Below, one piece after another: positions 5,453 to 51,834 of a stretch of DNA of 64,000 nt. The position numbers were made by a program, and so were the translations under genes. Source of the DNA: Ischnura elegans (lineage: Eukaryota; Arthropoda; Insecta; Odonata; Coenagrionidae); contig NC_060258.1 in the NCBI RefSeq assembly GCF_921293095.1, forward strand, positions 3,162,001 through 3,226,000, given 5' to 3'. The number at the start of each line of letters is the position of its first letter. Positions within the stretch are counted from its first letter, which is position 1. Under the pieces are notes generated by a model. That model was not told the DNA's origin. It searched no databases and worked only from the letters and a program-made list of their open reading frames with translations.

Positions 5453-6814
5453 TTAAATGATAAATGCCTGAGAAATAGATATATGACCAACCTTTGCCTT
5501 GGCTAGCAGTGTTCCCATCACATAGTTAGAATACAGAGAGAAGAGGAGAGGTGCTTGCCACTGCAAAATAGCTCCTCCTCTTGTGGATCCATCATAAGTG
5601 ATGATACCAGGGACAGCTGCAGCAAGCCAACATAACTTTGCATTCAGTGTCTTCCCATTCAATGCACAAGCGATATGCCCATCTAATACCTCTCCCTCCT
5701 TCCTCCTCTCCTCCAACTCCTCTATAGCCCTCATCCACTCACGCTCTCGTTCCACATCTCCCTTGCTGTAAGGCCTCCCATCATTATCAAAAACTAATTT
5801 TAGGGATAATTGTGAGAGGGCCCAAGCTAACCTAGAACATGCGAATTCATCCGTATCACCAGAACAATCCTTTGCACCCAAATAGACAGTCTCACTCTCA
5901 GCATCACAAAATGATATCCAATCACTCCCACTGTCCTGAGTCCCTTCCAAACTCACAACCTTCTTCTTCATCCTTCCAATGTTTACAGAATCAAAGTCTA
6001 CGATCACCTTCACCTGATCAACACCACACAAATACTTAATAATGCACACAATTAATTCATCTCCATCATACAGTCTGTCATATATCTTACGCATTTTATC
6101 AACTCCATTTCCATACACTATCAGCGTCTTTTGCATCATGGCGTCCACACACTCCTGCCTTGATCTGGGCGGATCGGATGTAGGTTGACTTAAAGATGCC
6201 TCCCCACTAAGACCACACTTGATTAATGTCACATCCTCCGCTGTTGACATCACTGACTCATCCAGACAATTCAACAGTGTGTCATGGCCACACACTTGTG
6301 CCTTTAGTTCCTCCAATGATGAGCTCAACTGATTTACAAGAGATTTCATCTCTCGCCTCAATGAGTCCACCGAGGACTTGAGAGATGCAATATCACATTC
6401 TGGGCTAGCCACGGGTGTTACATGATCAGTGCTTCTACTCGAAGATGCTTGCAGACGATGCAAAATAACTTGGTCTCTCCTGTGAACCAACGTCACCAAA
6501 TTCAGAACTTTTGAGCGTTCTACATCGTCAGGGAACTTCCGCACCATCTCCTCGGCTGAAGACAATGCATTCTGTTGACTGTCATCTGTTATGTCTGTGT
6601 CGGCCCCTCTCGCCAATAGTTCCTCCACCCAGTCAGTTTTTCCAAGTCCCACACCAACGTGCAAGAGCGTTTTTTGTCGCTTGTACCGAACATCAACATC
6701 TTCCATCATGTCTAGGAGCTCTTTATGCTGAAGCAATGAGCCAGTCAGCAATCCAGCAATGAGCCTCTCCTCAACAAATTGCTCTGCAATGCTAGCAGAA
6801 ATGTTGCTTGCCAT
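5453..6814 (-). CDS. Ankyrin-like, coiled-coil protein of unknown function, intronless
   Basis: A single 453-codon open frame, much longer than any other host frame in the window. Residues about 45-90 read as one or two ankyrin-type units (KTLLHVGVGLGKTDWVEELL, then RGADTDITD). Residues about 140-190 are a leucine-rich, probably coiled-coil stretch (SLRREMKSLVNQL). A C-terminal domain of about 200 residues follows a low-complexity linker. In that domain, around residue 330, LAWALSQLSLKLVFDN lies where I recall a HELTH-type zinc-protease motif in similar ankyrin proteins; the histidines and glutamate are absent here, so a peptidase function would be lost. That comparison is from memory. The ATG at 6814 is the first in frame, and no splice acceptor precedes it. 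AATAAA lies downstream at 5399-5394. The last dozen residues may be intronic if a GTTGGT donor near 5490 is used. Cellular role unknown; it could be one member of a multicopy family. Confidence 0.7.
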   Translation of the reverse strand: MASNISASIAEQFVEERLIAGLLTGSLLQHKELLDMMEDVDVRYKRQKTLLHVGVGLGKTDWVEELLARGADTDITDDSQQNALSSAEEMVRKFPDDVERSKVLNLVTLVHRRDQVILHRLQASSSRSTDHVTPVASPECDIASLKSSVDSLRREMKSLVNQLSSSLEELKAQVCGHDTLLNCLDESVMSTAEDVTLIKCGLSGEASLSQPTSDPPRSRQECVDAMMQKTLIVYGNGVDKMRKIYDRLYDGDELIVCIIKYLCGVDQVKVIVDFDSVNIGRMKKKVVSLEGTQDSGSDWISFCDAESETVYLGAKDCSGDTDEFACSRLAWALSQLSLKLVFDNDGRPYSKGDVEREREWMRAIEELEERRKEGEVLDGHIACALNGKTLNAKLCWLAAAVPGIITYDGSTRGGAILQWQAPLLFSLYSNYVMGTLLAKAKVGHISISQAFII

Positions 6815-7438
6815 TGTTGGGAAAAAAATAATGTATTTCAGCGGGTGTTGGATTCAGCAGAAGTTAGCAGTGGGAACCAGACGTGTTGACAATGGTCAGC
6901 AAGGAGTAATGCACTATCTCAGCGTTAGTTTGAAAAGATTAAATATTGGCTGCAATATAAAAGAAGAAACATCAAATTACTGTCTTAAAATTTGTCAATA
7001 GCAGAGTAGGAACATAACAACTAGGATATGAGTGACTCGAGAAAAAAATATGTCGCTCACTATGCAACCCAGAATAAAAAGGAACATGCTCTGGAATGGC
7101 ATTTCTGAAATTCAATCACTCACAACCATCGTTTATATGAGGAAATATCAATTCCGATGTTGACAAAAATAGATAGCTACGCTACAAGATGCTGGAGACT
7201 GTCTTCAACATGCAACCAAGCAGGAGTATAAACATTTATTAGAGAACCTAGAAGGAGGGAAGTGAGGTTAGAATGAAAATCGAGAACATGTATACGAAAA
7301 TGTATGATCTGACATGATAAAATTGGAAAATAGGCTGCTGAAATAGAGTAGATAAAAAAAAAGAATTTAGAACATTAGAATAAATTCAACAGATGCAGGT
7401 GGTAACGGGTGTAACTTCGAAATATTTAAATTTAAGAT
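6815..7438. other. Upstream of the ankyrin-like gene; no feature recognised
   Basis: AT-rich sequence that should contain the promoter of the 5453-6814 gene. I see no clear TATA box or repeat. Confidence 0.3.
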
Positions 7439-17232: not shown

Positions 17233-17936
17233 CCCCCATCCAGGTTTTACATAAGACTCCAGATATATGCCTCTCCCTCAACTTGATCGTAGGAGAGGAC
17301 TTAAAAAGTCCTGAATTTTATCGATCAATACAGATGAAAACATTCTCACCATTTGTTTAAGTTTACCTTAGAATAAGGACCATATGCTCAGTCGACACTA
17401 TAGGGTCAACCACCCCTTGATAGGTCATCAGCCCCAACATAAATGGATCACGCCCTAAATGTGCCCTAATTATGCTAAACAAGCCCTAATTATGGTAAAT
17501 TTTGAAATAAATGGCCCCAACATGATATAAGGTACCTGAACCAGACCTTTACCCAGGGATGCCGACTTATAAAATTATTGGGGGGGGGGAAAACCTGGGA
17601 TCTTTCCCCAGGAAATTTTATGAGTAGTGAGTTTAAAGTAATTTAAGCATTTTTGAAGAGTCATATGATCAACATTAGAATCCTGATAATTCATATCTCG
17701 ATATCTGGACACCCCAGGGAAAATCGACAAGCCTGAAACATTTATCCTTACATCCATAACGAAATTTTGAGGGGGCTCAGGCCCCTCGTTTGTTAAAATT
17801 TGTTAAGTGATGGTGACATCCTGTAGAAATGACTACAGTTACAGTGGACAAAAGCAATTTCACTATACAACATAGTAATACCTACAAATTAAGTTCATTT
17901 AACTAGAGTTTCACTGCGGATGAGAATATAGCTTAC

Positions 17937-18104
17937 CAACATATTAGCTCCGGATTGATGGGAGTCTGGCAAAGGAATGTATATTTCAGTCCTTTGGACT
18001 GAGCCAGTGAGATGTGAGGTGCCTTGCATCACATCTTGAATGCAGTCTTTTGTCTCAGTAGAAGACCCCAACTTGTCAACAGTAGCCTCATCCCCTTGGA
18101 TACT
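17937..18104 (-). CDS. ZAD gene copy A, exon 3
   Basis: 168-bp phase-0 exon; acceptor CTTCACAG, donor GTAAGC. About 80 percent identical in protein to copy B exon 39613-39780 (SIQGDEATVDKLGSS, QRTEIYIPLPDSHQS). Polar linker with no known domain. Confidence 0.85.
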
Positions 18105-18109
18105 CTGTG

Positions 18110-18560
18110 AAGATAGTAACAGTGATAAACAATTCACCTCCTTCATTGTCAACAAATGAAGCATATTTCTAATCATGATGAAAAGGGATTTTTAATGTGT
18201 CATTTAAGCTATTACGTAAAAATTGAGAGGTGTCTGTTAATCAATAACTCAAAAGCTTAACAGCTACTGAAACCAAAATTATGCAGGAAGATACTCGGTA
18301 TACTGACTCATATCTTGGCCATATTACAACATTCTTGGGACCATGGAATCAGAAAATAAATGTTTTCAGCAGTGGTGTCTTAAATATGAATTTTTTATGT
18401 GGAATATGCTTTTGATGCATATCTATTGTTATTGACATCTTGCTTATACATACTCTAATATGAAATCTAGGAGAAAAGAGGTAAATCTCATATGTTGGCC
18501 ACTTTTTGAGGCAAAGAAGTATGAATTCCTCATCTTGATCTAGGAAGAGATTTGTAGGAA
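18110..18560 (-). repeat. Intron 2 sequence homologous to copy B intron 2
   Basis: On the minus strand AAAGTGGCCAACATATGAGA, GCATATTCCAC and TTTTGAGTTATTGATTA appear in the same order as at 39170-39612. This shows that the duplication copied genomic DNA including introns. Confidence 0.7.
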
Positions 18561-18799
18561 AGTGCCCAAGAGGAGAATAAAATGTCCACGGGCACGAAAC
18601 GTCATAGATGGGGCAGCAGTTATATATACTTGGGACCAATTAAAATGTTCAAGAGAGTATTTCTTGAGCAGCCAATACACTGGATTTTAAGTAGCACAAA
18701 AAAGAAGAAACATAAGATCCTAAGAAATTCTGACAGGTCCACATTAATAGTCTCGTGGGTGAAACCTATTCATTCGGCAGATTTTTTTAATTATTAAAC

Positions 18800-20466
18800 C
18801 TCATCCCTGAAAAAGTAAAAAGTAAACGCAGCTAACATGCTTTTTCAGCTCTAAATTTGGATGAAAAAGTTCTTCACCAAAGAAATCTGCATAAAGTTGA
18901 ATTATTTAAGAAAAAATCTTTAAAAAAATATTTCATTGCATTATCAAAGAGGCAATTTCTGACCTCATACTCAAAATATGAATAACTAAATTAATTTTTA
19001 AAATGTAAAACCATTCTATTCCCAAACTAAAAAATTACTTTAAAATGAAAATACCCAGTGCATATTTTACTAAGAACAATTTCTTCTACAACCCCAACAA
19101 AATGGAGCATATCTTATGGCTAGCCACGCCTCTGAAGACTATATCATAGCATAATCATCTCAATTAATAAGAAAAGGTAATTTAACACATAAGCCATCTT
19201 TTAAGTCAAATAAACAGTCCAGTACACATCTTAGCCAAGCATTCATAAAAACACAACCTAGGAATTCCATAACACCAAAATTTGAAAAACAATATAATTT
19301 TAACTACAAGATTCATTAAAAAAACTATTTTTTAGCAGCATAAAGAAAAAACTTGTAATTGCTACTGTGATATAGATGGGTCTACCAAATATAGCGTACT
19401 GAAATCACACAAAATTGGTGCACAAATAAAAGTGAAATTATACATTTTGTAATTAAGAAACTGACAAACAAAATAAACGGATTGGTACATAAAAGATAAT
19501 TCACATCCGTTTTCTTATTTTTTTTTAATTTACACTTTGATTTTTAAAATGTTTTAGTACTTTTTTGCAACTAGATGTTTTAAAGTGTCAAAATAATTTT
19601 CAACACTGGGCCATTAAAAAATTTATTTTACCTCTCATATTTTAATAAAATATGCCTTGAGAATGGAAAATAAATGTCATAACCGTTAGCAGGTATGTTA
19701 TTGCAAATAAGTTAAACCTCAAGAAATCATATGGAAATATAAACAAGAATTCAAGTAAAACAATATTTCTCATGCGTTATTATCCACCGATGAAGAAAAT
19801 AATCTACAGAGCTATCACAACTCACGCATTGCAGGAAAAATTTGTAGGAGATATCCTTGAACATTTTAACATACTCTGGTTACCCAAGCGAGGATTTTAT
19901 AATAGAATATGTCATAGCCTAGAGGGTAGATTGCCTTTTGAGTGGATCATTTGCGACTTGAATTCCTCACTTTGTTAGCAAGATTGTTTAACAAACAAGT
20001 ATTTGAACCAAGCAAAAAAAAGGTCTACACTTATCACCACTGAAACCTCAACTGCAAGGCAAAAACATTTCGCGGAGATTCAGAAACACAGCCTCCGGGC
20101 AACTGGGCTAGATTCACTATTCCGTCAACCATGTACGACGGCTTTTAAAGTTCCCTCTTATTATCAATTATCCAATAGAATGCTTCTTTTACTTTTTATC
20201 TCTGATATAAATACTTTTAAAAATAAAGTTGAATTTACCACCTTCAAGCTGTCATACAACATTGTATTTCTCAAGTTGTGGCATCAAGTCAATAATCAAT
20301 CATAATTTTGTGTTTTATCAAATTACTGCTATAGGAAGACGATTCCGCATATAATTATCTACCTGGATTACTCACTGCTGTCGGCACAAACCAAAGACTC
20401 CAACTTCACGTTCTGGGAAACAATGCATGCACCAGTCTTCAAATAAGAAAAAAAGTAAGTACTCAC
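18800..20466. other. Intron 2 of ZAD copy A; nothing recognised
   Basis: Very AT-rich; short open frames at 19772-19978 and 20003-20305 show no motif. Confidence 0.3.
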
Positions 20467-33713: not shown

Positions 33714-33819
33714 CCCTGACAAAAATAAACTCCACCATGGTGGGTACAGGAAGGGTACAGGAAGGGTGGCATCCTTCATGGTGGGTAGTTACCCTTGCAC
33801 AACCCACGCCCTACCCACC

Positions 33820-34138
33820 ATTAAGGGTAAGGGAAGGAGAGAAAAATCCTTTGTGTACCCTTCCTTGGAACTCCTTCCCTTACCATCCGTGTACCCTTCC
33901 TCTACCCACCATTAAGGTAAGGGAAGGAGAGAAAAATCCTTCGTGTACCCTTCCTTGGAACTCCTTCCCTTATCATCCGTGTACCCTTCCTCTACCCACC
34001 ATTAAGGGTAAGGGAAGGAGAGAAAAATCCTTCGTGTACCCTTCCTTGCAACTCCTTCCCTTACCATCCGTGTACCCTTCCTCTACCCACCATTGAGGGT
34101 AAGGGAAGGAGAGAAAAATCCTTCGTTTACCCTTCCTT
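33820..34138 (+). repeat. Minisatellite, ~91-bp unit, about 3.5 copies
   Basis: TTAAGGGTAAGGGAAGGAGA recurs near 33821, 33911, 34001 and 34092; units differ by few bases. Built from CCTTCC and GTACCC motifs. Confidence 0.85.
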
Positions 34139-34316
34139 GGGACTTAGCATTTATAACTGAAGAAAACATATCCTGAAAGAGTCTCCTTAGCTACTTTCAC
34201 CTGCTAAAGAGTATTGAGTTCCGTACAAGAACGTAAGCAGTCTTTGAAAGCAAAGATAGACGGGCTACACAACTAATCTTTAAAATTTCCTTAAGGAAAA
34301 TAATAATATACATATT

Positions 34317-34581
34317 CAGTGGCGTATCCAGGGGTGGGGTCCGGAGGGTTCGGACCCTCCGCCCCCCCGAAGTATAAAAACACAATCATTTTCCTTCATA
34401 ATAGAAATCAAAATATTGAAAAATAATGAATTTAAAATAATATTTCTTTGACTATTGAAGTTTTTTCGATTATGAAAAGTGTTTGAATAAGTTGAATTCC
34501 AATACTTACTATCCTGTTTTTCAAAACTTTTCCCACCTGGTTTTGGACCCCCCCCAAACGAAATTCCTGACTACGCCACTG
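34317..34581. mobile_element. hAT-like MITE
   Basis: 265 bp with ends CAGTGGCGTATCCAGG and, inverted, CAGTGGCGTAGTCAGG. Flanking octamers TACATATT and TACACAAT match at six of eight positions. Nested inside the 33714-35420 element. Confidence 0.6.
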
Positions 34582-34834
34582 TACACAATAGTTTCTGTAA
34601 TTGTGTGAAAAAAGCTCATTTAGAAGTTCTTCCATTCACGTTTTAGGATGTAACCTATTTGTGTGGCTGACGATGAGACATCGCTAGAGTGATGTTCAGT
34701 ATTAGAATGCCGATCTTATTTTCTGAAACGAAATAGGTGTGGTAGAAAAAAGTCACAGCTTTCTTCCACATAGGCCCGGGTGCGATTCTCATCTTAAGAT
34801 TTTGTAGTATAAGTTCCGTTGAGAAACCACTCCT

Positions 34835-34915
34835 GACAAGTACCTCGATAGCCGATGTTGTTAAATCTCTAGTCCGTAATTCTGAAATATGTAGGTCCTG
34901 GGTTCAAGACCACGT
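34835..34915 (+). mobile_element. tRNA-derived SINE fragment
   Basis: TACCTCGATAGCCGATG resembles an A box and GGGTTCAAGACC a B box, about 70 bp apart, followed by a T-rich tail. Confidence 0.4.
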
Positions 34916-35052
34916 GAAGGCTAATTTTTTTATGCCCTATAACTTTAGAAAACACTGTTGCAACTCATCCCCATTCGTTTAATTTAGTTTATTAGCGATT
35001 TTTTAAATTTTTGTGTTAATTTATGGATTTTTAGTTTTTATTTTATCCTACC

Positions 35053-35345
35053 CTTCCTGTACCCTTCATTGAGGCTGGCCAAACCCTTCCCGTACCCTCC
35101 AGGAAGGAGAGGGCGTACCCACCAATGTTCTAAAATACCCTTCGTGTACCCTTGCTGGAGGGTGCAGGAAGGGTACACTTATCCTTCCTGTACCCTTGCT
35201 GAAGGGTACAGGAAGGGTACACTTATCCTTCCTGTACCCTTCATCGAGGCTGGCCTAACCCTTCCCGTACCCTCCAGGAAGGAGAGGGCGTACCCACCAA
35301 TGTTCTAAAATACCCTTCGTGTACCCTTGCTGAAGGGTACAGGAA
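35053..35345 (+). repeat. Minisatellite, ~175-bp unit, about two copies
   Basis: CTTCCTGTACCCTTCATYGA starts at 35053 and 35228, followed in both by GAGGCTGGCC and GGAGAGGGCGTACCCACC. Confidence 0.8.
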
Positions 35346-35420
35346 GGGTACACCTATCCTTCCTGTACACTCAATGGAGGGTAAACCTCTCCTCAATGGA
35401 GGAGTTTATTTTTATCAGGG

Positions 35421-38339: not shown

Positions 38340-39010
38340 TTATGAAGTTCCTAGGTTTTTTTTATGAATACCAGCTAAGATATGCACTGAATGTGATGTG
38401 CACTGTTTATTTGATTTTAAAGATGGCTTATGTGGTGAAATACCATATTTTATTAACTGAGATGATTAACCTATGTAACAGTTGTCACAATCGTGGCTTG
38501 CCATATGATATCCTGCATTTTTAGGGGTTGTTGAGGAAATTGTTTTTTTGTGTAGAATTGACACTGGGTATTAAAATAATTATGAAAAATTTTGAGGTCT
38601 GTTTTTTTAACGTAAATATTTTTTCAGATGGGTAATTTTGTTAGATGTTTACCTTTTCAGGAAAGGTTTTTGTAAGTGCTTGCACAGGGAATCGATTAGT
38701 ATTCCACTTTGTAAGTAAATTTTGTTGAATGAATTTTGAGTATGTTGTCAGAAATCAGGTATCTTTTGAGGACAGAATGTAATAAATTTGTTTTGTTAAT
38801 GTTTTAGATTTTTTTAGTTTTACTCTCAAATTTTTGCAGAATTCTTTGCCAAAAAACCTTTCCACATAAATCTAGAGCTGAAAAAGCGTGTTAACTGTAT
38901 TTACTTTTCTGGGTGATGTGATTTGAAAATTAAACAATCTCCTAAATTATTAGGTGTCATCCACCTATTGATGTGGAGCTGTTAGAAATTCTTAGATTCT
39001 TGTTTATCTT
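38340..39010 (-). mobile_element. Old Penelope-like element remnant
   Basis: Minus strand: RLFNFQITSPRKVNTVNTLF and ERFFGKEF near 38870-38960 (thumb region), then SHDCDNCYIG and SPHKPSLKSNKQCT near 38400-38510 (GIY-YIG). Many stops. Confidence 0.5.
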
Positions 39011-39169
39011 CTTTGTTTTGCCGTACACTATTCAGTGCATTGGCTGTTCAGGCATTGCTCTCTTGCCCGTTGAAATTGGTCCCATGTATCTCTAACTGCT
39101 GTCTCTTGTATTATGTTCTGTGACTTTGAACATTGTTTCCTCCTCTTTAGGGCTTTTCTAAAACTCTCC

Positions 39170-39612
39170 CATCCAGGATCAGGCTGATGATTTCATACTC
39201 TTCCACCTCAGAAAGTGGCCAACATATGAGATGTACCTTTTCTATCCCCGAGTTTGTTTTTGAGCACATATAAAAAGTAGGTCAATTACTATAGAAATGA
39301 ATCAAAAACATATTCCACGTCAAAGATTCACATTTTAAGACAACACTGTTGAAAGCATTTATTTTCTTTCTTTCTTTGCCCCATGTATGTTGTTATATGG
39401 CCACAATGTGAACTGATTATACCAAGTATTCTCCTGCCTAATTTGGTCTCAGCAGCTATTTAGCTTTTGAGTTATTGATTATGAGACACATGTCAATTAG
39501 TACGCAAATGCTTGAATATCACATTGAAAATCCTTTTTCATTAATATAAGGAGTATGCTTCATTTGTTGACACTAAAGGAAGGTGAGTTTATGGTAGTTA
39601 CTTTCTCCTCAG
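39170..39612 (+). repeat. Intron 2 sequence homologous to copy A intron 2
   Basis: Collinear with 18110-18560 (minus strand); see that entry. It lies immediately before exon 3 of copy B. Confidence 0.7.
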
Positions 39613-39780
39613 GGTATCCAAGGAGATGAGGCAGTTGAAGACGAGTTGGGGTCCTCTGCTGACACAAAAGACTTCATTCAAGATGAGATACAAGGCACCT
39701 CACATCTCACTTGCTCACTCCAAAGGACTGAAATATACATTCCTGTGCCAGACTCCCATCAATCCAGAGCTAATATATTG
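39613..39780 (+). CDS. ZAD gene copy B, exon 3
   Basis: 168-bp phase-0 exon; acceptor CTCCTCAG, donor GTAAGT. GIQGDEAVEDELGSS and QRTEIYIPVPDSHQS match copy A. The intron before it is 14.6 kb, against 2.4 kb in copy A. Confidence 0.87.
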
Positions 39781-40087
39781 GTAAGTTTTATTCTCATCCA
39801 CAGGGAAACCCTGGTTGAATGACCTTAATTTATAGATTTTTCCAAGAACATGACAAAATTGCTTTTCCCCAATGTAACTGAATGCATTTCTATGGTAAGT
39901 CATCCTTGCTTGTGTGCCTATGGAGATCTGATTCCATGAGTTGAAAAAAGAGGACAGCACCCTATAAAAAAGAGATAAGAGGAAAATCAGGCAGAATCAA
40001 AAATAACGCCAATCTTGGCCAACTGATGGGGCTAGACCTAGGGGGATTTGGTTGTTTAAACCCCTGCCGAAAACACTGGAGATTAGA

Positions 40088-40314: not shown

Positions 40315-41232
40315 GAGATAGTATGTGGCCGTAAGTATGTGGCCGATCGAGGAGAACGGACAAAAATAACACTAATAAAAACAAAGAAACACATAAAAAA
40401 GGACACTCACAAAGAATCTTTCAGACGTTTCAGCGGGTTGACCCGCTATCTTCAGTGCCGAAGGCAAACTGCTGCAGGCGGATTCCTCCAGTAGCCCTCC
40501 TTGGTGAAGTAGATGGGGGGGAAGGGAGGTTAGGGTTTGCTTTGACTTTTAGTGGGCAATGTTTAGCCCGGGTGTTGCAAACGCCTTTTCAACCCAAATA
40601 TGTGCCATTTCCCTCGTTCTCACCTCGATGATGGCTGCCTTCTCTGGTAGAATTTCAATGATGGTTTCAATGGTCAAAACATTTGTCGAAAGAACTGTTG
40701 TGTGAGGCAGTGTGAACGGGGATGGGTTCATGAAAGGGGGGGTTTTTCAGGAGTGCCTGTGGTTATTCATTCGGATGGATATGTGTGTGGTACATTCTCC
40801 TATGTAGTACGAGGTACCAATCCTACCGGTACCAATCTCCTAATGGCGACAATTGACGTCGTTTCACTATATACTTCTATTCCCCACCACGAAGGTCTCA
40901 ATGCCCTCAACTGCTTTCTTGCCCAATGCCCTCAGCCTCACTCTCCCTCCACCAACTTCATCATCCAATTAGCTGAACTAATTCTCAACAAAAACGCCTT
41001 CAACTTCAACGACACCATCTACCTACAAAAGTGAGGAGTCCCGATGGGAACCAGAATGGCCCCAGCCTATACAAACATGGGTCACCTGGAAAGCTCTTTT
41101 CTAAATTCCCAAACCCTCAAGCCTGTCCTGTGGGTCCGATTCATCGACGACATTTTTTTACTATGGGCCCATGGGCCCGATTTGCTTGACACATTCATTG
41201 CATCCCTCAACTCCACCTCATCTGTTTCTTTC
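40315..41232 (+). mobile_element. Penelope-like element, left part (split by the 9.4-kb transposon)
   Basis: 40315-40816 is an inverted copy of the PLE 3' end (arm 51325-51834), so it carries antisense C-terminal coding sequence and a hammerhead core. From about 40820 the plus strand reads as reverse transcriptase: ATIDVVSLYTSIPHHEGL, ELILNKNAFNF, then a TGA at 41032, then GVPMGTRMAPAYTNMG and VRFIDDIFLLW with the catalytic DD. The 5' part of the RT is missing. The transposon entered after NSTSSVSF and the frame resumes at 50630. Confidence 0.85.
40422..40471 (-). ncRNA. Hammerhead ribozyme candidate in PLE terminus
   Basis: Minus strand reads CAGTT, then a stem TGCC-TTC-GGCA, core CTGAAGA, a six-pair stem II AGCGGG-TCAA-CCCGCT, then GAAAC. 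These are the CUGANGA and GAAA core boxes, stem I, stem II and a GUU cleavage triplet in the right order, with the very short stem III typical of PLE hammerheads. Confidence 0.7.
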
Positions 41233-41550
41233 CCCTGGCGAAAAAGAATGGTAACATTTGTGTAACCTAATGGTAACTTTGGAGTGTACCATTAGTGTAG
41301 GAAAATGGTGAAGGCTGTGTGTAACCATAGTGTACATAGTTATAACTCCAGTGTACAATATGTGTAACTTTGTGGTGAAGTGGCCCAATCTGTGTAGGTT
41401 TTGTGTGTATATTGTGTAACAATTGGCGCTGAATTGTGTACAGTGAGTACAGTCTGCAGTGGTACATGATGTGTACATGATGTACACTATAGTACCATTT
41501 AGTACACAGGTGTACATTAATGGTATAAAGGGTACCATGCAATTAGGATT
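41233..41550 (+). repeat. Left subterminal repeat array
   Basis: About a dozen GTGTA motifs (TGTGTAAC, AGTGTACC, TGTGTACA) plus TGGTAAC and GGTACATG in some 310 bp, with little other complexity. Likely binding sites for one of the two element proteins, as with the subterminal repeats of CACTA elements. Confidence 0.75.
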
Positions 41551-41590
41551 AAACTTAAATACATAAATGCAGAATGTTTAAAAATCAATC

Positions 41591-41596
41591 TTTATT
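41591..41596 (-). promoter_or_regulatory. Polyadenylation signal of the partner gene
   Basis: AATAAA on the minus strand, 53 bp beyond the TAG at 41649. Confidence 0.6.
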
Positions 41597-41648
41597 AGTG
41601 TATGTACATATTTGATGAATTACTATAAATCATCTGTCGTTTCCTCCC

Positions 41649-41677
41649 CTACTCCCTCTTGATGATCTTGATAGTTC
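41649..41677 (-). CDS. Transposon partner gene, exon 7 (terminal)
   Basis: Acceptor TTCAACAG; the phase-1 join from exon 6 gives a short tail ending IKIIKRE and TAG. An alternative phase would give a more acidic tail of about 17 residues, so the exact end is the least certain part of this gene. Confidence 0.5.
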
Positions 41678-41881
41678 CTGTTGAATGAAAAAGTAAAATT
41701 TAAAACATATGTCAAGCAAAATTTTATAACATGATAAAATGGACAATAATTTGGTTTAATGCATAACATTACACTTTTTCTGGCAAAATAATCTTTATTT
41801 TTTCAAAAATGAAATGAAACTGGTTGAGAAGACTTAATGTTTCACAATATTTTCATACATAACAACCCCTTAAGTTACTGC

Positions 41882-43372
41882 AGGGTCATTCCATGTCAAC
41901 TCAACAAGGGTCCCACGCCTGCCATCTGAGATTTTGATCATTTTTTCCCTGTTGTTGTGCTTCTATGATTTTTTAGTGATGGTTGTAAAATGGTGGGCTA
42001 CAGCACTTACATTTCAGGGCTTCCCCAAAAAGGTGAGTTGAATTTGAGTATTGAGATTCCTATAAACCCCTATCATTCTTTAAATTTAGCAGCCAAGCTA
42101 TTTTTAATTTCCAAAGAGTATAAAATGGCAACATTTTAGAAAATATATGAATTTACTAGATATTTGCAATTAGGCAAAAAACTGGTTGAATATGTACCTA
42201 TTTGAAGAATGAATACATACCTCTGACCTCTAAGCCTGATATTAAGCACTCCAGGCCTTCTCAATAGCAGTGACTGTGCAATCTGCCAAGGTGTACTGAC
42301 TTCCTGTAATGGTCTTACGCACAAGAACTCTGATCTTAGATGTCAAACACCTATGGCCTAAATGATGTCTACTCTGTGTTGAGAGCTAAAGCATAGCAAC
42401 ATGAAACATGGGATTCCAATGAAAGTAACTAACACATTGAAAGTGCTCAAACTCAAAAGCAGACTTGAACTCCATATATCTAAATGTCTCCACTTCCCAT
42501 TAATTTTCATCATGCACCTGGATATTACATCGCTGATGTGAATGAAAACAGATGTTACAATGGCTTTATTGTTCAAACAGTTGAGGGTGGTACAATTCTT
42601 GTGAATTTCATGACATTTGATGGTAAGGCTAGGTCAAACACGTGGCCAAAATAAGGATTAGTGCAGGATTACATAAACAAATTTGTGTTAATGCTAGTAA
42701 CAGTGCGTAACACCATTACAGGAAGTCAGTACACCTTGGCAGATTGCACAGTCACTGCTATTGAGAAGGCCTAGAGTGCTTAATATCAGGCTTAGAGGTC
42801 AGAGGTATGTATTCATTCTTCAAATAGGTACATATTCAACCAGTTTTTTGCCTAATTGCAAATATCTAGTAAATTCATATATTTTCTAAAATGTTGCCAT
42901 TTTATACTCTTTGGAAATTAAAAATTTATATATATACATTTAAAGAATGATAGGGGTTTACAGGAACCTCAATACTCAAATTCAACTCACCTCTTGGGGG
43001 AAGCCCTGAAATATAAGTGCTGTAGCCCGCCATTTTATAACCATCACTAAAAAATCATAGAAGCACTATCAATCATGGGAGCAACTTCAGGTTTAATTTT
43101 CCTGCAAGAGGGAGGATAGTGCATGGTTACAGCTACAGGGGCACAAATATGGTAGTTTTGAATAATTTGACTGGTGCGCAGAATTTTTGTGTGTGCCTCA
43201 TTGACTTCAAACACTCATATCTTGGAAATTACTTGCAATGGGTCTTTAATATTTTGGATTTTTCTTAACTAAGGTTGAAACTAACAACAGGGATAAAATG
43301 ATCAAAATCTGAGATGGTGGGCGTGGGACCCCCCAAAAATTGGTTGAGTTGACATGGAATGACCCTGCTCTT
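41882..43372. mobile_element. Foldback (long inverted repeat) element nested in the transposon
   Basis: Left end CAGGGTCATTCCATGTCAAC at 41881 and its reverse complement at 43372. Arms of several hundred bp align inward (for example GGTGTACTGACTTCCTGTAA at 42290 against TTACAGGAAGTCAGTACACC at 42716). It occupies the last intron of the partner gene without touching an exon. The outer GGGTCATTCCATGT is shared with the arms at 28495 and 38322. Confidence 0.75.
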
Positions 43373-43452
43373 ATTTATTTTACCTCATACCATGTTGATT
43401 CAAGCTAACTTATATTAAGCCAATTGGTAAAATAAAATTTGAAGCAACTTAC

Positions 43453-43617
43453 GGAGCCAGGTTCTCTGCAATTTTTTTTTCCCCATGCCAGTGTTCCGTC
43501 GTCCATTCAAGTCTCTGGCCAGCTTTGATAGCATGGTCATCACCTCCGCAGACTTTTGAGACAGTGCTGAGTGATTGCCCTCAAATCCAGTTCTGGTTAA
43601 GAACATTTCGTAGTGAG
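43453..43617 (-). CDS. Transposon partner gene, exon 6
   Basis: 165 bp, phase 1 at both ends; acceptor TTTCCCTGCAG, donor GTAAGT. Encodes AHYEMFLTRTGFEGNHSALS and ARDLNGRRNTGMGKKK, a basic C-terminus. Confidence 0.7.
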
Positions 43618-43693
43618 CTGCAGGGAAACCATAACAAATCAATAAATTATATCTACAGGTGCAACTCAGGAATATCTGTAAATATATATATAC

Positions 43694-43895
43694 CTCTAGC
43701 TGCTGCTTCAAATTGTGTTGCGAATGGCACAAGCTCTCCCTTATTCTGGTCATGGACCCGATACCTCAGTCGCTTGGCCTCTTCTCGACTGTAACAGCCT
43801 AGCAGGAGTGCCCTGCACCATTTCCTGCTATTAGTTTCGCACTCCATCACTCTTAGGGCAGTTGCAGCAATTGGTATTCCTGGTGCAAGAAATGC
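43694..43895 (-). CDS. Transposon partner gene, exon 5
   Basis: 202 bp; acceptor TCATTCAAG, donor GTATAT, joins in phase to exon 6. Encodes AFLAPGIPIAATALRVMECE and NSRKWCRALLLGCYSREEAK, a helical basic region with faint likeness to BEN domains. Confidence 0.7.
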
Positions 43896-43997
43896 CTTGA
43901 ATGAAAAAAAAATGAAAATGAAAAAAAAAGGAGTTATGGGAAGAATGTTAAGATCACGATGTAGGAGACAATCTAGAATCTAGAAATTGGATTTTAC

Positions 43998-44065
43998 CTC
44001 TTGTCCTTGTGCACTGCTGCATGAAGCTAGTTCACTTGCGACACCACTCGTAGGCAATTTAGCAT
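43998..44065 (-). CDS. Transposon partner gene, exon 4
   Basis: 68 bp; acceptor CTTGTTGCAG, donor GTAAAA. Enters in phase 1 and leaves in phase 0; encodes AKLPTSGVASELASSCSSAQ. Confidence 0.65.
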
Positions 44066-44327
44066 CTGCAACAAGCCACAATTATTCAAGACTGGATTTA
44101 GTACAATTTGTAAAATTAAGAGGGGGAAAAAGGCTTCCAAGAAGAGCATAATGCATAGCAGTAGCTGTTGCTGAAATGGAAGCTATTAATCTTTGTTGCA
44201 ATGTCAATTATTTAAAATTTTAAAATGAAATAAAATATCATAGGAAAGATGAATAGGAGGGATTTAACAAGGAAGAGGCACTCATTCAACCATTGACCCA
44301 CTACAGCATGCTTTGAATCACACTTAC

Positions 44328-44727
44328 TTAGAGTAGAGTCGACAGAGGCCAAGCAAAATTTTAAACTTGATACCTCTGAGGTCAAATTGGTAACTTGAGA
44401 GGTGAGGTCATCAAGTCTTGAGATGATCGCATCATCTTTAATCGATTTCGCTTCTAAATCTTTCTTTGCTTCTAGAGCAACACATTTCCAGTGCTCTGCC
44501 TCCTCCTTGTATTTCTTCACTTCAGAATCTTGGTCTAAGCCACAAGGGAAGGCGTTACCAGATGAAGACTTTGAAACACACTCATTGAGGCTGGCAGGCT
44601 TGGACAACTTAGATTTCTTTGAATTCCCAGGTTTGCCTTCACAAGTGATTGCCTTGACAAACTCATGCAGTTTGTCCGTACTACAAGTATTTGCACTCCT
44701 CTTCTTACTTTCATTCTCTGCATTGGA
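44328..44727 (-). CDS. Transposon partner gene, exon 3 (coiled coil)
   Basis: 400 bp; acceptor CCTATTGCAG, donor GTAAGT. Starts with a lysine-rich stretch (NESKKRSANTCSTDKLHEF) and ends in a heptad-like coiled coil (IISRLDDLTSQVTNLTSEVS) that could oligomerise the protein. Confidence 0.75.
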
Positions 44728-45066
44728 CTGCAATAGGAAAAAATGTTATCAGTATGCCATATTCTTGCATATAAATATTGGCCAGTGTTGAATGCTAAAT
44801 TTAATTTTGACAGCGTATGAAATTTTCATTTGAATTCTGAAAATGAGTTAAATCCTGACATTCACCAAAATCCAGATATTCATCCAGGGATTCAATAAAA
44901 TAAGAATGTGAGAACTCTATCGAACCTGAGATTCAAGTGAAGTCTCATGTTCGATTGTTTTGTCATGTAAATCAACACATAATATGCTTCTTATTGGAAA
45001 GACAGGATTCACGACATATGATGTGAAAATAATTAATAACTAATCGTAATAAGAGAGAAAACAAAC

Positions 45067-45197
45067 CTTCTTCGGTTGCACCAATCTTCCTCGCTCTACT
45101 TCACTCTCAGACCCAAGAGCATCAGAATCTGTCGGTCGCAAAACTGGCCACTTCAACCTGGACTTCTGGATGCTTTCGTTCAATGCTTTTTCATTCT
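45067..45197 (-). CDS. Transposon partner gene, exon 2
   Basis: 131 bp; acceptor ATCCACAG, donor GTTTGT. Enters phase 1, leaves phase 0; encodes ENEKALNESIQKSRLKWPVL and an acidic SDALGSESEVERG. Confidence 0.7.
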
Positions 45198-45358
45198 CTG
45201 TGGATACATCCCGTAGATAATAATAATTATAGCAAGTGTATTGTATTTTTTAAGGTTTGAAACTTTGAACACAAACCAAATCGAACTTTCAAAAAATACC
45301 TAAGTCATACCTCGTGACATAATTCAGTAATACAATAGGCGACTTGGATGAAACTTAC

Positions 45359-45605
45359 CGGCAATTCTACAAATGTAAACTTTGAAGAGCTGATATTTGT
45401 CCTTCGCATCACTCCACTCCTTCGACTTTATCAGGTACTTTTGCCCGGGATTAAAGTCTTTATCATGCCTCGGCTTGTGGTGAACGAGTTGATGCACTCT
45501 AACCGTTTCGTCCAGTCCATCCGTGTGCTTACACGCTACAAGCCAATCTTCCGGGATTTTTTCAGCTGCAGCAGCAACACAGTTGTCATTTACTGGATAA
45601 GGCAT
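45359..45605 (-). CDS. Transposon partner gene, exon 1 (413-aa protein)
   Basis: First of seven exons (45605-45359, 45197-45067, 44727-44328, 44065-43998, 43895-43694, 43617-43453, 41677-41649) whose lengths sum to 1,242 bp, exactly 414 codons with stop, and whose phases agree at every join. The N-terminus has PEDWLVACKHTDGLDETVRV and KYLIKSKEWSDAKDKYQLFK, a compact domain I do not recognise. The protein then has an acidic-basic linker, a coiled coil and a basic C-terminal region. By position it is analogous to the TnpA protein of plant CACTA elements, which binds subterminal repeats; that role is inference. It starts 448 bp from the divergent transposase start. Confidence 0.72.
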
Positions 45606-46053
45606 TATTTATCTAAAGCGCAGATTTACCGAATCAAATCTAGAGAAGACCGACGTCAAAACTTAAACAAACAATCCAAACGTACATAAACCGACGCGTA
45701 AGGAAAAATCCAAGCAACGTGGTTACGAATTTCTGCATTCAGTTGTTTGTTTGGATATGTCCTAAGAGTAAAATAATACTTCATGAATTTAAAGTGTAAC
45801 TTTCGATATGTTCTTCACTATGGCGTAATACTGTTATTTATCCTCCGTCTCAATTCCAAATAAATCCGGTATCATGATTTATGCTTGATACTCCGTGTTA
45901 AACTGAAATGTGGCGTGGGGTGTAGATCGAGTTTTTCATACTACATAATATTCCCTGCTTACACCGCGCGGAATTTTTCATACTGTCATGCTGAAAATTA
46001 TGATATGTTACTGATACTAATGAAGAGCACTTTTAGAGGTTAATGTTGAGAAA
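45606..46053. promoter_or_regulatory. Bidirectional promoter of the transposon
   Basis: The only sequence between the divergent ATGs at 45605 (minus) and 46054 (plus). It contains no repeat array and no obvious TATA box. Confidence 0.5.
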
Positions 46054-46146
46054 ATGAAACGATATTTGCATGACGATTCCCCTATCCCAAGACGTACAGC
46101 TTATCGTCGCCGTAAGGAAGCACTTATAGCTGCGAGGCTGCATGTG
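46054..46146 (+). CDS. CMC-like transposase, exon 1 (891-aa protein)
   Basis: Four exons: 46054-46146, 46263-46319, 46397-46529 and 46610-49002. Exon 1 encodes a short basic start (KRYLHDD, PRRTAYRRRKEALIAARLHV) of the kind seen at the N-terminus of Transposase_21 proteins. Donor GTAAGA, phase 0. The protein cuts and joins the transposon ends in the nucleus. See the entry for 46610-49002 for domains. The ATG is the only one opening this frame and lies 448 bp from the divergent partner gene. Confidence 0.75.
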
Positions 46147-46262
46147 GTAAGATTATCTATGCATCTTGGTAGACATCTTTAATGGAAGCATGAAGAATTT
46201 TAGACATATTTATCTAAAAACCTTGGGAAGCATTTCATGAATCAATCGTTTTGTCCACACAG

Positions 46263-46319
46263 AGCCCTGACAGCGAAGCGGAGTCTGAGCACAGCGGCAG
46301 TCGGACGGAGGATGAGAAC
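46263..46319 (+). CDS. CMC-like transposase, exon 2
   Basis: 57 bp, phase 0; acceptor TCCACACAG, donor GTTAGT. Encodes the acidic serine-rich SPDSEAESEHSGSRTEDEN. Confidence 0.7.
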
Positions 46320-46396
46320 GTTAGTGTAAATTACTTATTATTCGATATTACTCGACTATCGCGGAATACGCGCAATAACAGTAAATTGCATTGCAG

Positions 46397-46529
46397 GGCT
46401 ATGAAAATTCCAGTTCTGGCAAGCTACTCCCGGTGCCCTTTCCTATCAAAAATGAAGAGACAGATCTGGGTAGAAATTTATCCGACGGCCATAGTACAAC
46501 TTCCCTTATAGACGTGGGGAACACGAGCG
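46397..46529 (+). CDS. CMC-like transposase, exon 3
   Basis: 133 bp; acceptor TTGCATTGCAG, donor GTGAGT. Enters phase 0, leaves phase 1; encodes SGKLLPVPFPIKNEETDLG. Confidence 0.72.
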
Positions 46530-46609
46530 GTGAGTGTCTGTTGTCAGAAATTTTACCATCATTTAAAGTCTTTGGAACCAGTTATAACTCCTTTCTAAAA
46601 ATTTTTCAG

Positions 46610-49002
46610 AGGCATCTCAGTGTGGAGAGAGTGATCATGATAGTCAGAGTGGGCATGATATTTATGAGAACATATCTAATGACGAGGGCAATGAACTACT
46701 GTATGAGGATGTTGAGAGAGGCCTCGATTCTCCTCCTCCTCTAGATGAAGACATGCCTCGTGAAGCCAACCAATTTCGGGGTGTCCCTCTTTGTCCATGC
46801 ACTACTACTACCGAAGGAGATACTTTCCTGATGTGTTTGGCTCTTGGTATACGTCATGGTTTGTCTTGGGTAGCAATAGTTGATATTTTAAAGTTTGTAA
46901 ACAAACTATTTGGTAGAAAAGTAGTTCAGGATTCTAAGTATTTCCTCTTAAAGCATTTGGACCAAGATAAGAATGTAATTACCGTCCATATGTATTGTCG
47001 CGCTTGTGAAAATTATTTAGGAACCAAGGAGAAAGTGAATGAGGAACAAATTATTCAGTGTAATAATTGTGAGGAAAATGTGCAACCCTTTGCAAAGAAC
47101 TCCTCTTATTTTGTTTCCGTTAAAACAGACAAACAATTTCAAGCTTTAATGGAAAAACCAGATGTGGCGCAGGAAATTATGACTTATCGCTTTGAAAGGT
47201 GCAAACTGAACAATGATGCATACGAAGATATTTATGATGGATACATGTACAAAAAATTGTGTGAACCTGGTGAACCTCTTTCAGACCCAAAAAACGTTTC
47301 AGTTACAATTAACACGGATGGTTTAGCTCTGGGTGAATCTTCTACGCAGTCTGCCTGGCCAATATTTATGCATATCAATGAACTGTCTCCACAAACAAGG
47401 AAGAAATATCTGATTTATGCTGGTATGTGGGTGGGTCGGAAACAGCCGAACATGAATATTTTCTTGAAGCCTTTTGTTAATGATTTGAAAAAACTTGCTG
47501 ATGATGGTTTTGCTTGGAAAGACTCCAATGGTGTGGAGCAACGTAGTAAAGTCATCCCTATCTTGGCGGTATTAGATTCAGGAGCTCGATACAAATTTTT
47601 GAACTTGACATCTTTCTCGGGTTACATGGGATGCACATTCTGTTATCAGAGGGCTGAAAACACACAGCATGGACGTAGATTCACTGTATGTAAAGAGCCT
47701 GCTGCATTGAGGACTCAAGAATCTATGCTTGTAGACATGCAAATTGCTCATGAACGTAGAAATAACAGAAATACCAAAGAGCGAGTTTACAGAGGGTGTA
47801 AAGGCCTTACCCCATTAGTTTATTTACATCCATACTTGAATTTGGGTTCTGGGGTTGTTGTTGATTTTATGCATAATGCACTTTTAGGAGTCACTCGTGC
47901 TCATTTATTTGCACTCCTCAACACAGCTGGTGCTCCATATTACTTAGGTGATCCAGAGAAAAGTTATGTGATGAACCAGCGTCTAATGCAGATCAGGCCT
48001 CCAAGATCAATAACAAGAACACCCAGGGAACTTACGCACATAAAAAAATACACAGCTGGTGAGTGGAGAGCTTTTCTACTTTTTTATTCAATTGCTTGTT
48101 TTGATGGTCATTTAAATGGTAAATATTTTGAACACTTTGCTCTGCTCTCAGCATCTTTTTACATTCTGCTCAAAGGTTCTATAACAGGCAATGAATTAGA
48201 ATTGGCACATGGCTATCTAAGAAAATACGTTTTTCTCACCCAACAGCATTTCAGTGAAACAGCTATGACGTACAATGTTCACCTACTGCTACATGTTACA
48301 AAAGCAGTTTCAGATTGGGGGCCTATTTGGGCCTACAGTACTTTTGTTTTCGAGGGTGAGAACCATTTTTTGAACAAAATGCACACAAGTCCTGGAAGAG
48401 TCGCCTTACAACTCACTCGCAGATACTTAACTTTTAAAGATTATCCAAACCTGTGTGAATGCTTGGCATCTTCAGATGAGCCTCTACTTTTTATTAAAGA
48501 CATCACTGGAAAGAGGTATTCATTCCACGTAGAGTGCAATCAATGTATTCTGATTGGGAAATCAACTACTCATCGTTTGAGTGCAGAGGACTTGGAGTGC
48601 CTAAGAATATTAGGTGTTGATTTCTTGGAGGAGACTGTTTACAGTTATAGTAGAATGCTGCATAGGAAGGTGCGCCTAACAACGAAGGGTTATACTGAGG
48701 GAAAGAAAAATGATGATTCCTGGGTAAGAACTAGGGATGGCAGAAGGGGATGCATAAAATCAATTTTCCACTTTCTAAGTAGAGAAAGAAGTAACATTGT
48801 TGTTATCCTCCAAGAAGTGAAGATTGACAAGGCTCCCATTCTTCAAACTCAAATTCTAATGGTAAACCACGTTAAAAGAATCCTTGGTAAAGGTAGTTCA
48901 ATTGCCATTAAACCCTCAGACATCATTGGCCAATGCATTCACATGGAAACAGACACTGGGAACTTCATAGCTGACGTTCCTTATGGTTGTTATGGAGATT
49001 AG
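46610..49002 (+). CDS. CMC-like transposase, exon 4 (catalytic)
   Basis: 2,393 bp; acceptor TTTTTTCAG, in frame with exon 3. Protein coordinates refer to the spliced 891 residues. 95-142: acidic linker. 224-248: zinc-ribbon-like C-x2-C, 17 residues, C-x2-C (YCRAC, IQCNNC). 325-680: Transposase_21 (tnp2, PF02992) with TINTDGLALGESSTQSAWPI (first Asp, about 331), INELSPQTR, NIFLKPFVNDL, AVLDSGARYKFLNLTSFSGY (second Asp, about 417), CTFC (436-439), VVDFMHNALLGVTR, HIKKYTAGEWRAFLLFYS (candidate Glu, about 579), FEHFALL, TYNVHLLLHV and WGPIWAYSTFVFEGEN. The frame is uninterrupted over the family's full length. AATAAA follows at 49072. Catalytic residue assignment is by motif position only. Confidence 0.92.
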
Positions 49003-49071
49003 ATTCATTATTTATTATTAGTGCTTAAAATCACACAGATATCTGGGCAATTCCATTTTATCACAGTCATA

Positions 49072-49077
49072 AATAAA
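49072..49077 (+). promoter_or_regulatory. Polyadenylation signal of the transposase gene
   Basis: AATAAA 70 bp after the stop codon at 49002. Confidence 0.6.
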
Positions 49078-49099
49078 CACGTGACGGAATTACCAATTG

Positions 49100-50180
49100 C
49101 TTCTTGTTTCAAACTCAAAAAGAATAAGGTCATTTAACTTCAAAACAACTCTGAATCTTTAGTAAACATATTATTACCCGATAAAATTTAAAAAATGTAG
49201 CTTCTATAAAATAAAATTCCCACCTCCTGTTTATTCTGAGCTTCCTGCAGTTTCCCGTATGTGTCAGTCTAACCAGCCCTTCTATCAGCCATAGGTCACA
49301 AGACAGTAGCAGGTTTTTCCAAGACATTGCCCCCTTCTATATGCAGATGTTAATTTTTAAGACATCAAATTTGGACAGTATTACTTCAACCTGAGTTTAT
49401 GGATATTTTATTTTTACTCATGCACATGCACCGTCTGCGTAGTTCATCTTCAACGTGTTCTCGGCCTTCCAAAAATGATTTGTGCCAGCGAAAAACTTGT
49501 GCTATTTATATGTTATGTTCCTCTTAGGTCTTTTTCAACTTTTCAAGAGTCACGCTGCTATGTGGCCTCAATTGAGCATTATTTAGAGAATCTAATTTTA
49601 GACCTTAAAGGGTGTCTGAACCTACCTATCTAGGAGTAAAATAAAATTACTATGTTACACATTTATGATACAATAAAAACAATTTAGAGTTTTTGTGACG
49701 AAATTACCAATTTTTCATGTTCACTTATATCTGTATTTTAAAATCTATGTACATTATGTATTAAAGTTGATATTTGTTTCAAAACGTTGCCAAAGCTATA
49801 CTACACAAGGCCCACAATGCAATAGAACACTACTTATGTTGTTTTTTGATAAATATTACTCTGTAAACAATAATGTAATAGTTCATAACAAATCTCTGTC
49901 AGCCATCATGAATTCAACGATCACCAAATGAGTAACTAAGGTGTTTGAGCAAATCCAATACTGATTTCATAAAATTCGATCATTTAAATGTTGATGTATC
50001 AAGATAAAATATGTCCAGCCTAAAATTTAATTTCAGAGAAAAAGTTGACATTTTCGTGGAAATGCCCATCTATTAGTTTTCTTGACAATGTTTCTAATAA
50101 AGGAAAGTTGATGTACCTCATGGATAAATTGTAATCTGATGTTAATAAAATCTTCTTTTCAAACCTAGTAAGTTATTTTG
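49100..50180. other. Transposon interior, non-coding
   Basis: AT-rich sequence between the transposase 3' end and the right subterminal array; no open frame with a motif. Confidence 0.4.
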
Positions 50181-50184
50181 CAAC

Positions 50185-50627
50185 AAAAGTTCCCTCTAAC
50201 ACTGAGTGTTGATCTACACTTGACAAAAAAATGTGGTACATGACATGCACGAAAAATGGGTACAGTTGGTGAGAATGGCCTGTAAGTACAGAAAAAGTGT
50301 GGGGTAATATCTCTGTACTATGAGTGTAAATTATTGGTATCGCGACACAGTGGTAAAATTGTGATGACATTTGTGTACCCAAAAATGGTGATTGATGTGT
50401 ACAAATTGTGTACACTTCTGGTGTATGAATAGACTGGTAACTTAGTGGTATAATCTGTGTAACATCTTATGCATCACATTGAGTACAGCTGTGGTACCAA
50501 TAATGTACAGGATGTACCAACTGTACGATTTGTGTAACTTTGTGAGTAGAAAAGTGTAGTAAATATGTAATTTTACATAATGTACCATATTTTTACACAT
50601 ATTTGTTACACAGATTTTTCGCCAGGG
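50185..50627 (+). repeat. Right subterminal repeat array and terminus
   Basis: Many GTGTAC, GTGTAAC, GGTAC and TGTAC motifs over about 430 bp (for example TGTGTACAAATTGTGTACAC near 50395). The GTGTA units are mostly on the same strand as in the left array, so the arrays are direct rather than inverted copies. Ends TTTTTCGCCAGGG. Confidence 0.72.
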
Positions 50628-51834
50628 TCACTTCATCAATTTCTGCTTCCTCCCTTACCTTCCTTGACATAAACATCCACCTTGAAAACAATATCTTCAG
50701 CACCTCCATCTTCAAAAAACCCACCAACCATGAACAATACCTACACTACAGCAATTGCCATCCACCTCACACCAAACACGCATTCTCCTACTCCCTCTCA
50801 GTCTGTGCCCATCGCATCTGCAGCAATTCACCATCTCCTCAAAGAGCCACAGTAGCACTGCCACAGTAGTCCACCATGCTCTCCTCAAACGAGAGTATCC
50901 AGAATCTCTGCTTAAAAAGAAAATACTCTCTTCCTCCGAACAGTACACCCCACGCACCAAAAAAGAACAGACTAGCAAACTTAATCTCACCACCACATTC
51001 TTCCCGGGTACTCAAAAAGTTAAAAAAATATAAAAGGTCTGTACCTCATCATCAGCAAAAACAAAACCACAGCTGTTCTTCTTCCATCCTGTCCCTCCAT
51101 TGCCTACAGAGGAGCACCTAACTTATGTAATATTTTAAAAACCACCCGCCCCCTCCTCCGGCACACACTCCCCCCACTTTCCTCCCTGACTCCATGCAAC
51201 CACCCCCGTTGCAAGTGCTGCCCCCTGCTACGCCCCACCACTTCACCTGTCATCAATAGATCCTCCTCCACACCGTCTTGCTCTTCCTTCAACGTTGTCT
51301 ACAGGCTATTTTGTAATTTTTGCCCCTCGTACTATTAGGAGAATGTACCACACCCATATCCATTCGAATGAATAACCACAGGCACTCCTGTAAAACCATC
51401 CCCTTTCATGAACCCATCCCCATTCACACTGCCTCACACAACAGTTCTTTTGACAAATGTTTTTCCCTAACTTTCATTGAAGTTCTGCCAGAGAGGGCAA
51501 CCATCATCGAGGTGAGTACCAGGGAGATTGCCCATATCTGTGTTCAAAAAGCGTTCGAAACGCCTGTGTTAAACATTGCCCATTAACAGCCAAAGCAAAC
51601 CCTATCCTCCCTTCCCCCTCTCCACTTCCCCTTCTTCCACCCCCACTACTTCACCAAGGAGGGCTACTGGAGGAATCTACCTGCAGCAGTTCGCCTTCGG
51701 CACTGAGGATAGCGGGTCAACCCACTGAAATGTCTGAAAGATTCTTTGTGAGTGTCCTTTTTTATATGTTTCAATGTTTTTATTAGTGTTATTTTTGTCC
51801 GTTCTCCTCGATCAGCCACATACTTATACTATCA
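50628..51834 (+). mobile_element. Penelope-like element, right part
   Basis: After the TC duplication the RT frame resumes (TSSISASSLTFLDINIHLEN, FKKPTNHEQYLHY, HPPHTKHAFSYSLS), then frameshifts into a GIY-YIG region that is badly decayed apart from RCKCCPL-like and VYRLFCNFC blocks near 51210-51330. The C-terminal coding end at 51400-51586 includes EVSTREIAHICVQKAFETPV. The last 500 bp are repeated inverted at the left end. Confidence 0.8.
51687..51742 (+). ncRNA. Decayed hammerhead ribozyme candidate
   Basis: Same layout as 40422-40471 but with mismatches: core CTGAGGA, stem II AGCGGG-TCAA-CCCACT with one mispair, GAAA. Lies in the right PLE arm, opposite orientation to the left copy. Confidence 0.55.

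Follow-up and report, generated by a model that had tools for sequence, protein, structure and literature searches.

The transposon at positions 41233–50627 (9,395 bp) of the window, by which we mean the whole stretch of 64,000 nucleotides analysed, raises the question of whether it represents an undescribed animal lineage of the CMC group, as a preliminary description had proposed, or belongs to a lineage that has already been published. In our view, the most consistent interpretation is that the element belongs to TRC, the animal type of CACTA/EnSpm transposon, as a new family and not as a new lineage, and we put the probability of this at about 0.9. The word 'new' refers to its 13-bp end, CCCTGGCGAAAAA, for which, as for a shortened form of it, a text search of the literature gave no match; the family may already be listed in Repbase.

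The left terminal inverted repeat (41233–41245, forward strand) is reproduced at the right end (50615–50627, reverse strand), with identity at 13 of 13 positions in inverted orientation. The window contains five matches to the 13-mer at two or fewer mismatches, compared with a chance expectation of 1.41; the two termini are exact and the other three carry two mismatches. When the 500 bp on either side of each end were compared, the sole inverted 13-mer that they shared was the terminus at 41233. A blastn comparison of the element with the window revealed no second copy, the only hits being those of the element to itself and to the inverted repeat inside it.

The dinucleotide TC lies directly outside each end (41231–41232 on the left and 50628–50629 on the right). 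The flanks are open pieces of a degraded retroelement, which we take to resemble a Penelope-like reverse transcriptase (WVRFIDDIFLLW). On the forward strand its frame has no stop between 41035 and the insertion site (left flank, 41035–41232) and resumes from 50630 to 50866 in the right flank; stops occur farther out on both sides, in keeping with a degraded target. The flanks were joined in two ways. After removal of one TC a single frame crosses the site, reading SLNSTSSVSF up to it and TSSISASSLTFLDINIHLENN beyond it, whereas with both TC copies retained TSSISASSLTFLDINIHLENN falls in another frame. Since the frame of the interrupted retroelement is restored when one TC is removed, the target duplication is most simply the 2 bp TC. 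A Pfam search of three flank pieces gave RVT_1 for one of them at an E value of 0.23, which is below the cut-off, and no match for the other two, among them the right flank. The transposon sits inside an older, broken retroelement. Two further pairs of retroelement-rich segments in the window match each other in inverted orientation: 38.7–39.9 kb (38501–39892) with 17.8–19.0 kb (17824–19119) at 76%, and 40.3–40.8 kb (40332–40814) with 51.3–51.8 kb (51325–51826) at 85%. We also note a 466-codon open frame on the reverse strand at 5453–6853 with weak ankyrin-like matches (best E value 0.01, below the cut-off).

Both subterminal regions are enriched in the motif GTGTA. The left region (41233–41532, 300 bp counted) contains 13 copies on the forward strand and two on the reverse strand, and the right region (50228–50627, 400 bp counted) contains eight and three, respectively, compared with eight on each strand in the 8,695 bp between them. 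In first-order simulations, 13 copies were reached at the left end in 0 of 2,000 runs and eight at the right end in 21 of 2,000, figures which flatter GTGTA because it was picked by eye after looking, among eight motifs counted. The arrays at the left and right ends have largely the same orientation. Elsewhere in the window, tandem arrays of GTACCCTTCC-type units occupy 33811–35368, with periods of 91, 44 and 175 and matches of 94–96%.

The transposase gene (46054–49002, forward strand) consists of four exons (46054–46146, 46263–46319, 46397–46529 and 46610–49002) separated by GT/AG introns, and its frame is open across 891 codons to the stop. It includes an open stretch of 804 codons; in 200 sequences simulated from the element with a first-order model, the longest open stretch was 211 codons. 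Pfam reports Transposase_21 in the large exon with an E value of 2.1e-11 and a score of 43.9 bits (cut-off 28.6), and in the whole protein with an E value of 2.5e-11. Two rows below the cut-off were set aside: PF09788 (E values of 0.0021–0.0025), which spans a CX2C-rich stretch and perhaps indicates a zinc-ribbon-like resemblance, and PF12978 (E value 0.13). The introns, as predicted, suggest a eukaryote origin for the element. Single-protein queries for relatives of the transposase, which reach close relatives only, gave two pattern stretches in viral contigs and 12 in prokaryote genome contigs, none of which was confirmed, as would be expected for a eukaryote element. A PDB sequence search with this protein and with that of the second gene described below returned chance-level rows only (best E values of 1.9 and 1, respectively), and an AlphaFold prediction of 401 residues of the catalytic region, run without an alignment, had a mean pLDDT of 35.1 and no usable fold.

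Along the transposase the patterns follow one another in the order D331, D417, C436-X2-C439, box A (residues 512–521), H652-X3-H656 and E676. D331, D417 and E676 form a candidate DDE triad, assigned by position without an alignment. The spacing from D331 to D417 is 86, and a spacing of 80 is given for TRC (PMC1636069). The C436/C439 pair and the only HX3-4H in the protein both fall between D417 and E676, and CX2C and HX3-4H between the second D and the E have been reported for the CMC/Transib group (PMC12730594); CX2C is present four times in the transposase, so that one at the right place is weak evidence alone. The box A pattern, [LVI]-D-X-[LM]-H-X3-L-G, is matched exactly by VDFMHNALLG and turns up in three of 20,000 shuffled versions of the transposase. 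Motif I, [ILV]X[ILVF]X[ILVF]X2DGX3[FY]X7-9WP[ILV], is found in most TRC elements (PMC1636069). The stretch VSVTINTDG..WPI at residues 324–346 fits it at all positions but one, where a G replaces F/Y. Owing to this G the strict pattern has no match; relaxed at the F/Y position it has one, compared with none in 20,000 shuffles.

In these respects the preliminary description is borne out: the perfect 13-bp terminal inverted repeats, the TC target duplication, the subterminal repeat arrays (with GTGTA as a post hoc motif, one of eight) and the full-length Transposase_21 protein of 891 residues in four exons are all present. Its placement of the element in the CMC group is likewise supported by the Transposase_21 match and the motif set.

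The picture is less simple for the second gene, which is divergent from the transposase gene and is modelled on the reverse strand (41649–45605) as a protein of 413 residues. The proposed seven exons (45605–45359, 45197–45067, 44727–44328, 44065–43998, 43895–43694, 43617–43453 and 41677–41649) were reproduced by one of the six splice combinations tried, the others not being open to such a length, but the 3' end of the model is ambiguous. The model frame is open throughout exon 6 and ends eight codons into exon 7. An alternative frame has a stop in the first quarter of exon 6, is open from there on and runs into exon 7 as NYQDHQEGVGEETTDDL before stopping, which gives a 17-codon open end. This might reflect a lesion in the frame, an incorrect splice site or gene model, or a natural stop that lies earlier, and in so short a stretch the signal could be chance. 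For the 413-residue protein, Pfam gave no family above the cut-off (the only row was PF04513, with an E value of 0.011) and the PDB gave no credible match (no row better than an E value of 1). A BEN domain that we had suspected was dropped, as Pfam shows none. The polyadenylation signals claimed for both genes are there, with AATAAA about 53 bp past the stop of the second gene (41591–41596, reverse strand) and about 70 bp past that of the transposase (49072, forward strand), but, since each strand of the element contains 11 AATAAA hexamers, their position near the stops is weak evidence.

A nested, foldback-like inverted-repeat element of about 1.49 kb (41881–43367, about 1,487 bp), which was overlooked when the transposon was described as apparently intact, occupies the last intron (41678–43452) in the model of the second gene. 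Its arms are 223 nt long and 99% complementary; outside them lie additional matching segments of 132, 49 and 35 nt. Its 25-bp ends, CAGGGTCATTCCATGTCAACTCAAC, are identical. The window holds no further exact copies of these ends, and no target duplication around the nested element was clear by eye.

The alternative that survives best is that this is a decayed, immobile copy in which the transposase is intact and the second gene is broken. Such a reading would be compatible with membership of TRC, and we consider it a serious but minority possibility. The nested element filling the last intron, the absence of a second copy within 64 kb and the fact that it is the alternative frame of exon 6, not that of the model, which continues to the 17-codon open end are all consistent with decay, but the transposase frame is open over its full 891 codons, the ends are perfect and the exon 6 signal is short enough to have arisen by chance. 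The earlier statement that no disabling mutation was seen is doubtful for the second gene.

The assignment to TRC depends on comparison with published elements. CCC ends were reported by DeMarco 2006 in TRC elements of Schistosoma, Tribolium and Aedes, and 2-bp duplications were found in seven of 14 SmTRC1 copies as well as in the Tribolium and Aedes elements (PMC1636069). On the same two features, Tang 2015 placed an element from Hydra in TRC (PMC4298943). According to PMC1636069, box A is carried by animal TRC proteins and absent from plant proteins, and the proline and the P-L/I motif that plant and fungal proteins have in box II are missing from that of animal TRC. The ends and box A together suggest that the present element is of the animal type, although box A is also common to three of four fungal TRC proteins (PMC1636069). 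Against the assignment to TRC, the G in motif I leaves the strict pattern without a match, and the wider CMC/Transib group has mostly CA..TG ends (PMC12730594), unlike both the element and TRC.

That the element instead belongs to a CMC lineage that is separate from EnSpm/TRC and not yet described now appears very improbable to us. Such a lineage would accommodate a 13-bp end without a match in the literature text search, a 413-residue protein without a Pfam family above the cut-off or a credible PDB match, subterminal repeats with largely the same orientation at the left and right ends and a motif I that deviates at one position. However, the CCC ends, the 2-bp duplication and box A have all been published for TRC (PMC1636069, PMC4298943), and the termini, which had been considered unusual and a sign of novelty, have their like in the CCC ends and 2-bp duplication of the Hydra TRC element (PMC4298943). 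Since the ends of the Tribolium, Aedes and Hydra elements differ from one another after CCC (PMC1636069, PMC4298943), a new 13-mer marks a family and not a lineage. Less probable still is that the element belongs with the Mirage, Plavaka or ESTA types elsewhere in CMC/Transib. These have C(2)C and H(3-4)H in common with ours, and short duplications are known for some of them (2 bp in PlavakaA, 2 or 3 bp in PlavakaB and TA in ESTA; PMC12730594). As described for Plavaka and ESTA (PMC12730594), however, the TGT..ACA ends of PlavakaA, the CATCA..TGATG ends of PlavakaB and the TA duplicated by ESTA differ from the CCC..GGG and TC found here. The element's own transposase also scores well above the cut-off for Transposase_21.

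For a TRC element with the anatomy, target duplication, transposase family and motif set observed here, a cut-and-paste mechanism can be proposed. A spliced four-exon message would yield the transposase, which would bind the GTGTA-rich subterminal arrays and the CCC ends and excise the element by means of a DDE RNase H-like active site; the element would then insert elsewhere with a 2-bp target duplication. At the present locus the insertion would have gone into a retroelement that was already resident. The divergent second gene probably encodes an accessory protein, perhaps a DNA-binding helper. Plant En/Spm has a two-protein system, tnpA/tnpD, and by analogy this could be an animal TRC family that combines mostly same-direction arrays with a divergently transcribed accessory gene that has no known relatives, and that is possibly still mobile, a suggestion that we regard as speculative and rather unlikely. 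The element gives the CACTA superfamily a well-preserved, autonomous-looking new member on its animal side and offers a clean target duplication within a coding frame. Should the second gene prove necessary as a helper, it would be relevant to the question of whether there are two-protein CACTA systems outside plants; if it did not, the finding would be one of ordinary genome annotation.

Plant CACTA elements have subterminal repeat arrays and a 3-bp target duplication. The plant type was considered and rejected for the present element, which has CCCTG ends and a 2-bp duplication as opposed to CACTA ends and 3 bp. The two have Transposase_21 in common, but the plant (En/Spm) elements, as far as they are described in PMC1636069, combine CACTA ends with the lack of box A, in contrast to the CCCTG ends and box A seen here. 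The misfit to classic CACTA that had been pointed out is thus real with respect to the plant elements, whereas the published animal TRC elements fit (PMC1636069). Spongebob (EnSpm-4N1_HM) of Hydra resembles our element in its CCC ends and 2-bp duplication and differs in the sequence of its ends, CCCAGCCAACATTGAC, and in its consensus length of 5,836 bp; its transposase is unreadable through stops or frameshifts (PMC4298943). In comparison with the TRC elements of PMC1636069, the sequence after CCC is different, the fourth base, T, being common to Tribolium (the terminal repeat of which starts CCCT) and not to Aedes (the element of which is 9.2 kb long and has a terminal repeat of 10 bp). The divergent 413-residue second gene modelled here is without a counterpart in the portion of that description available, and spliced transcripts, which are predicted for the present element, have been published for SmTRC1 (PMC1636069). 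With SmTRC1 of Schistosoma mansoni and the Tribolium and Aedes elements the present element shares CCC ends, a 2-bp duplication, Transposase_21 and box A (PMC1636069).
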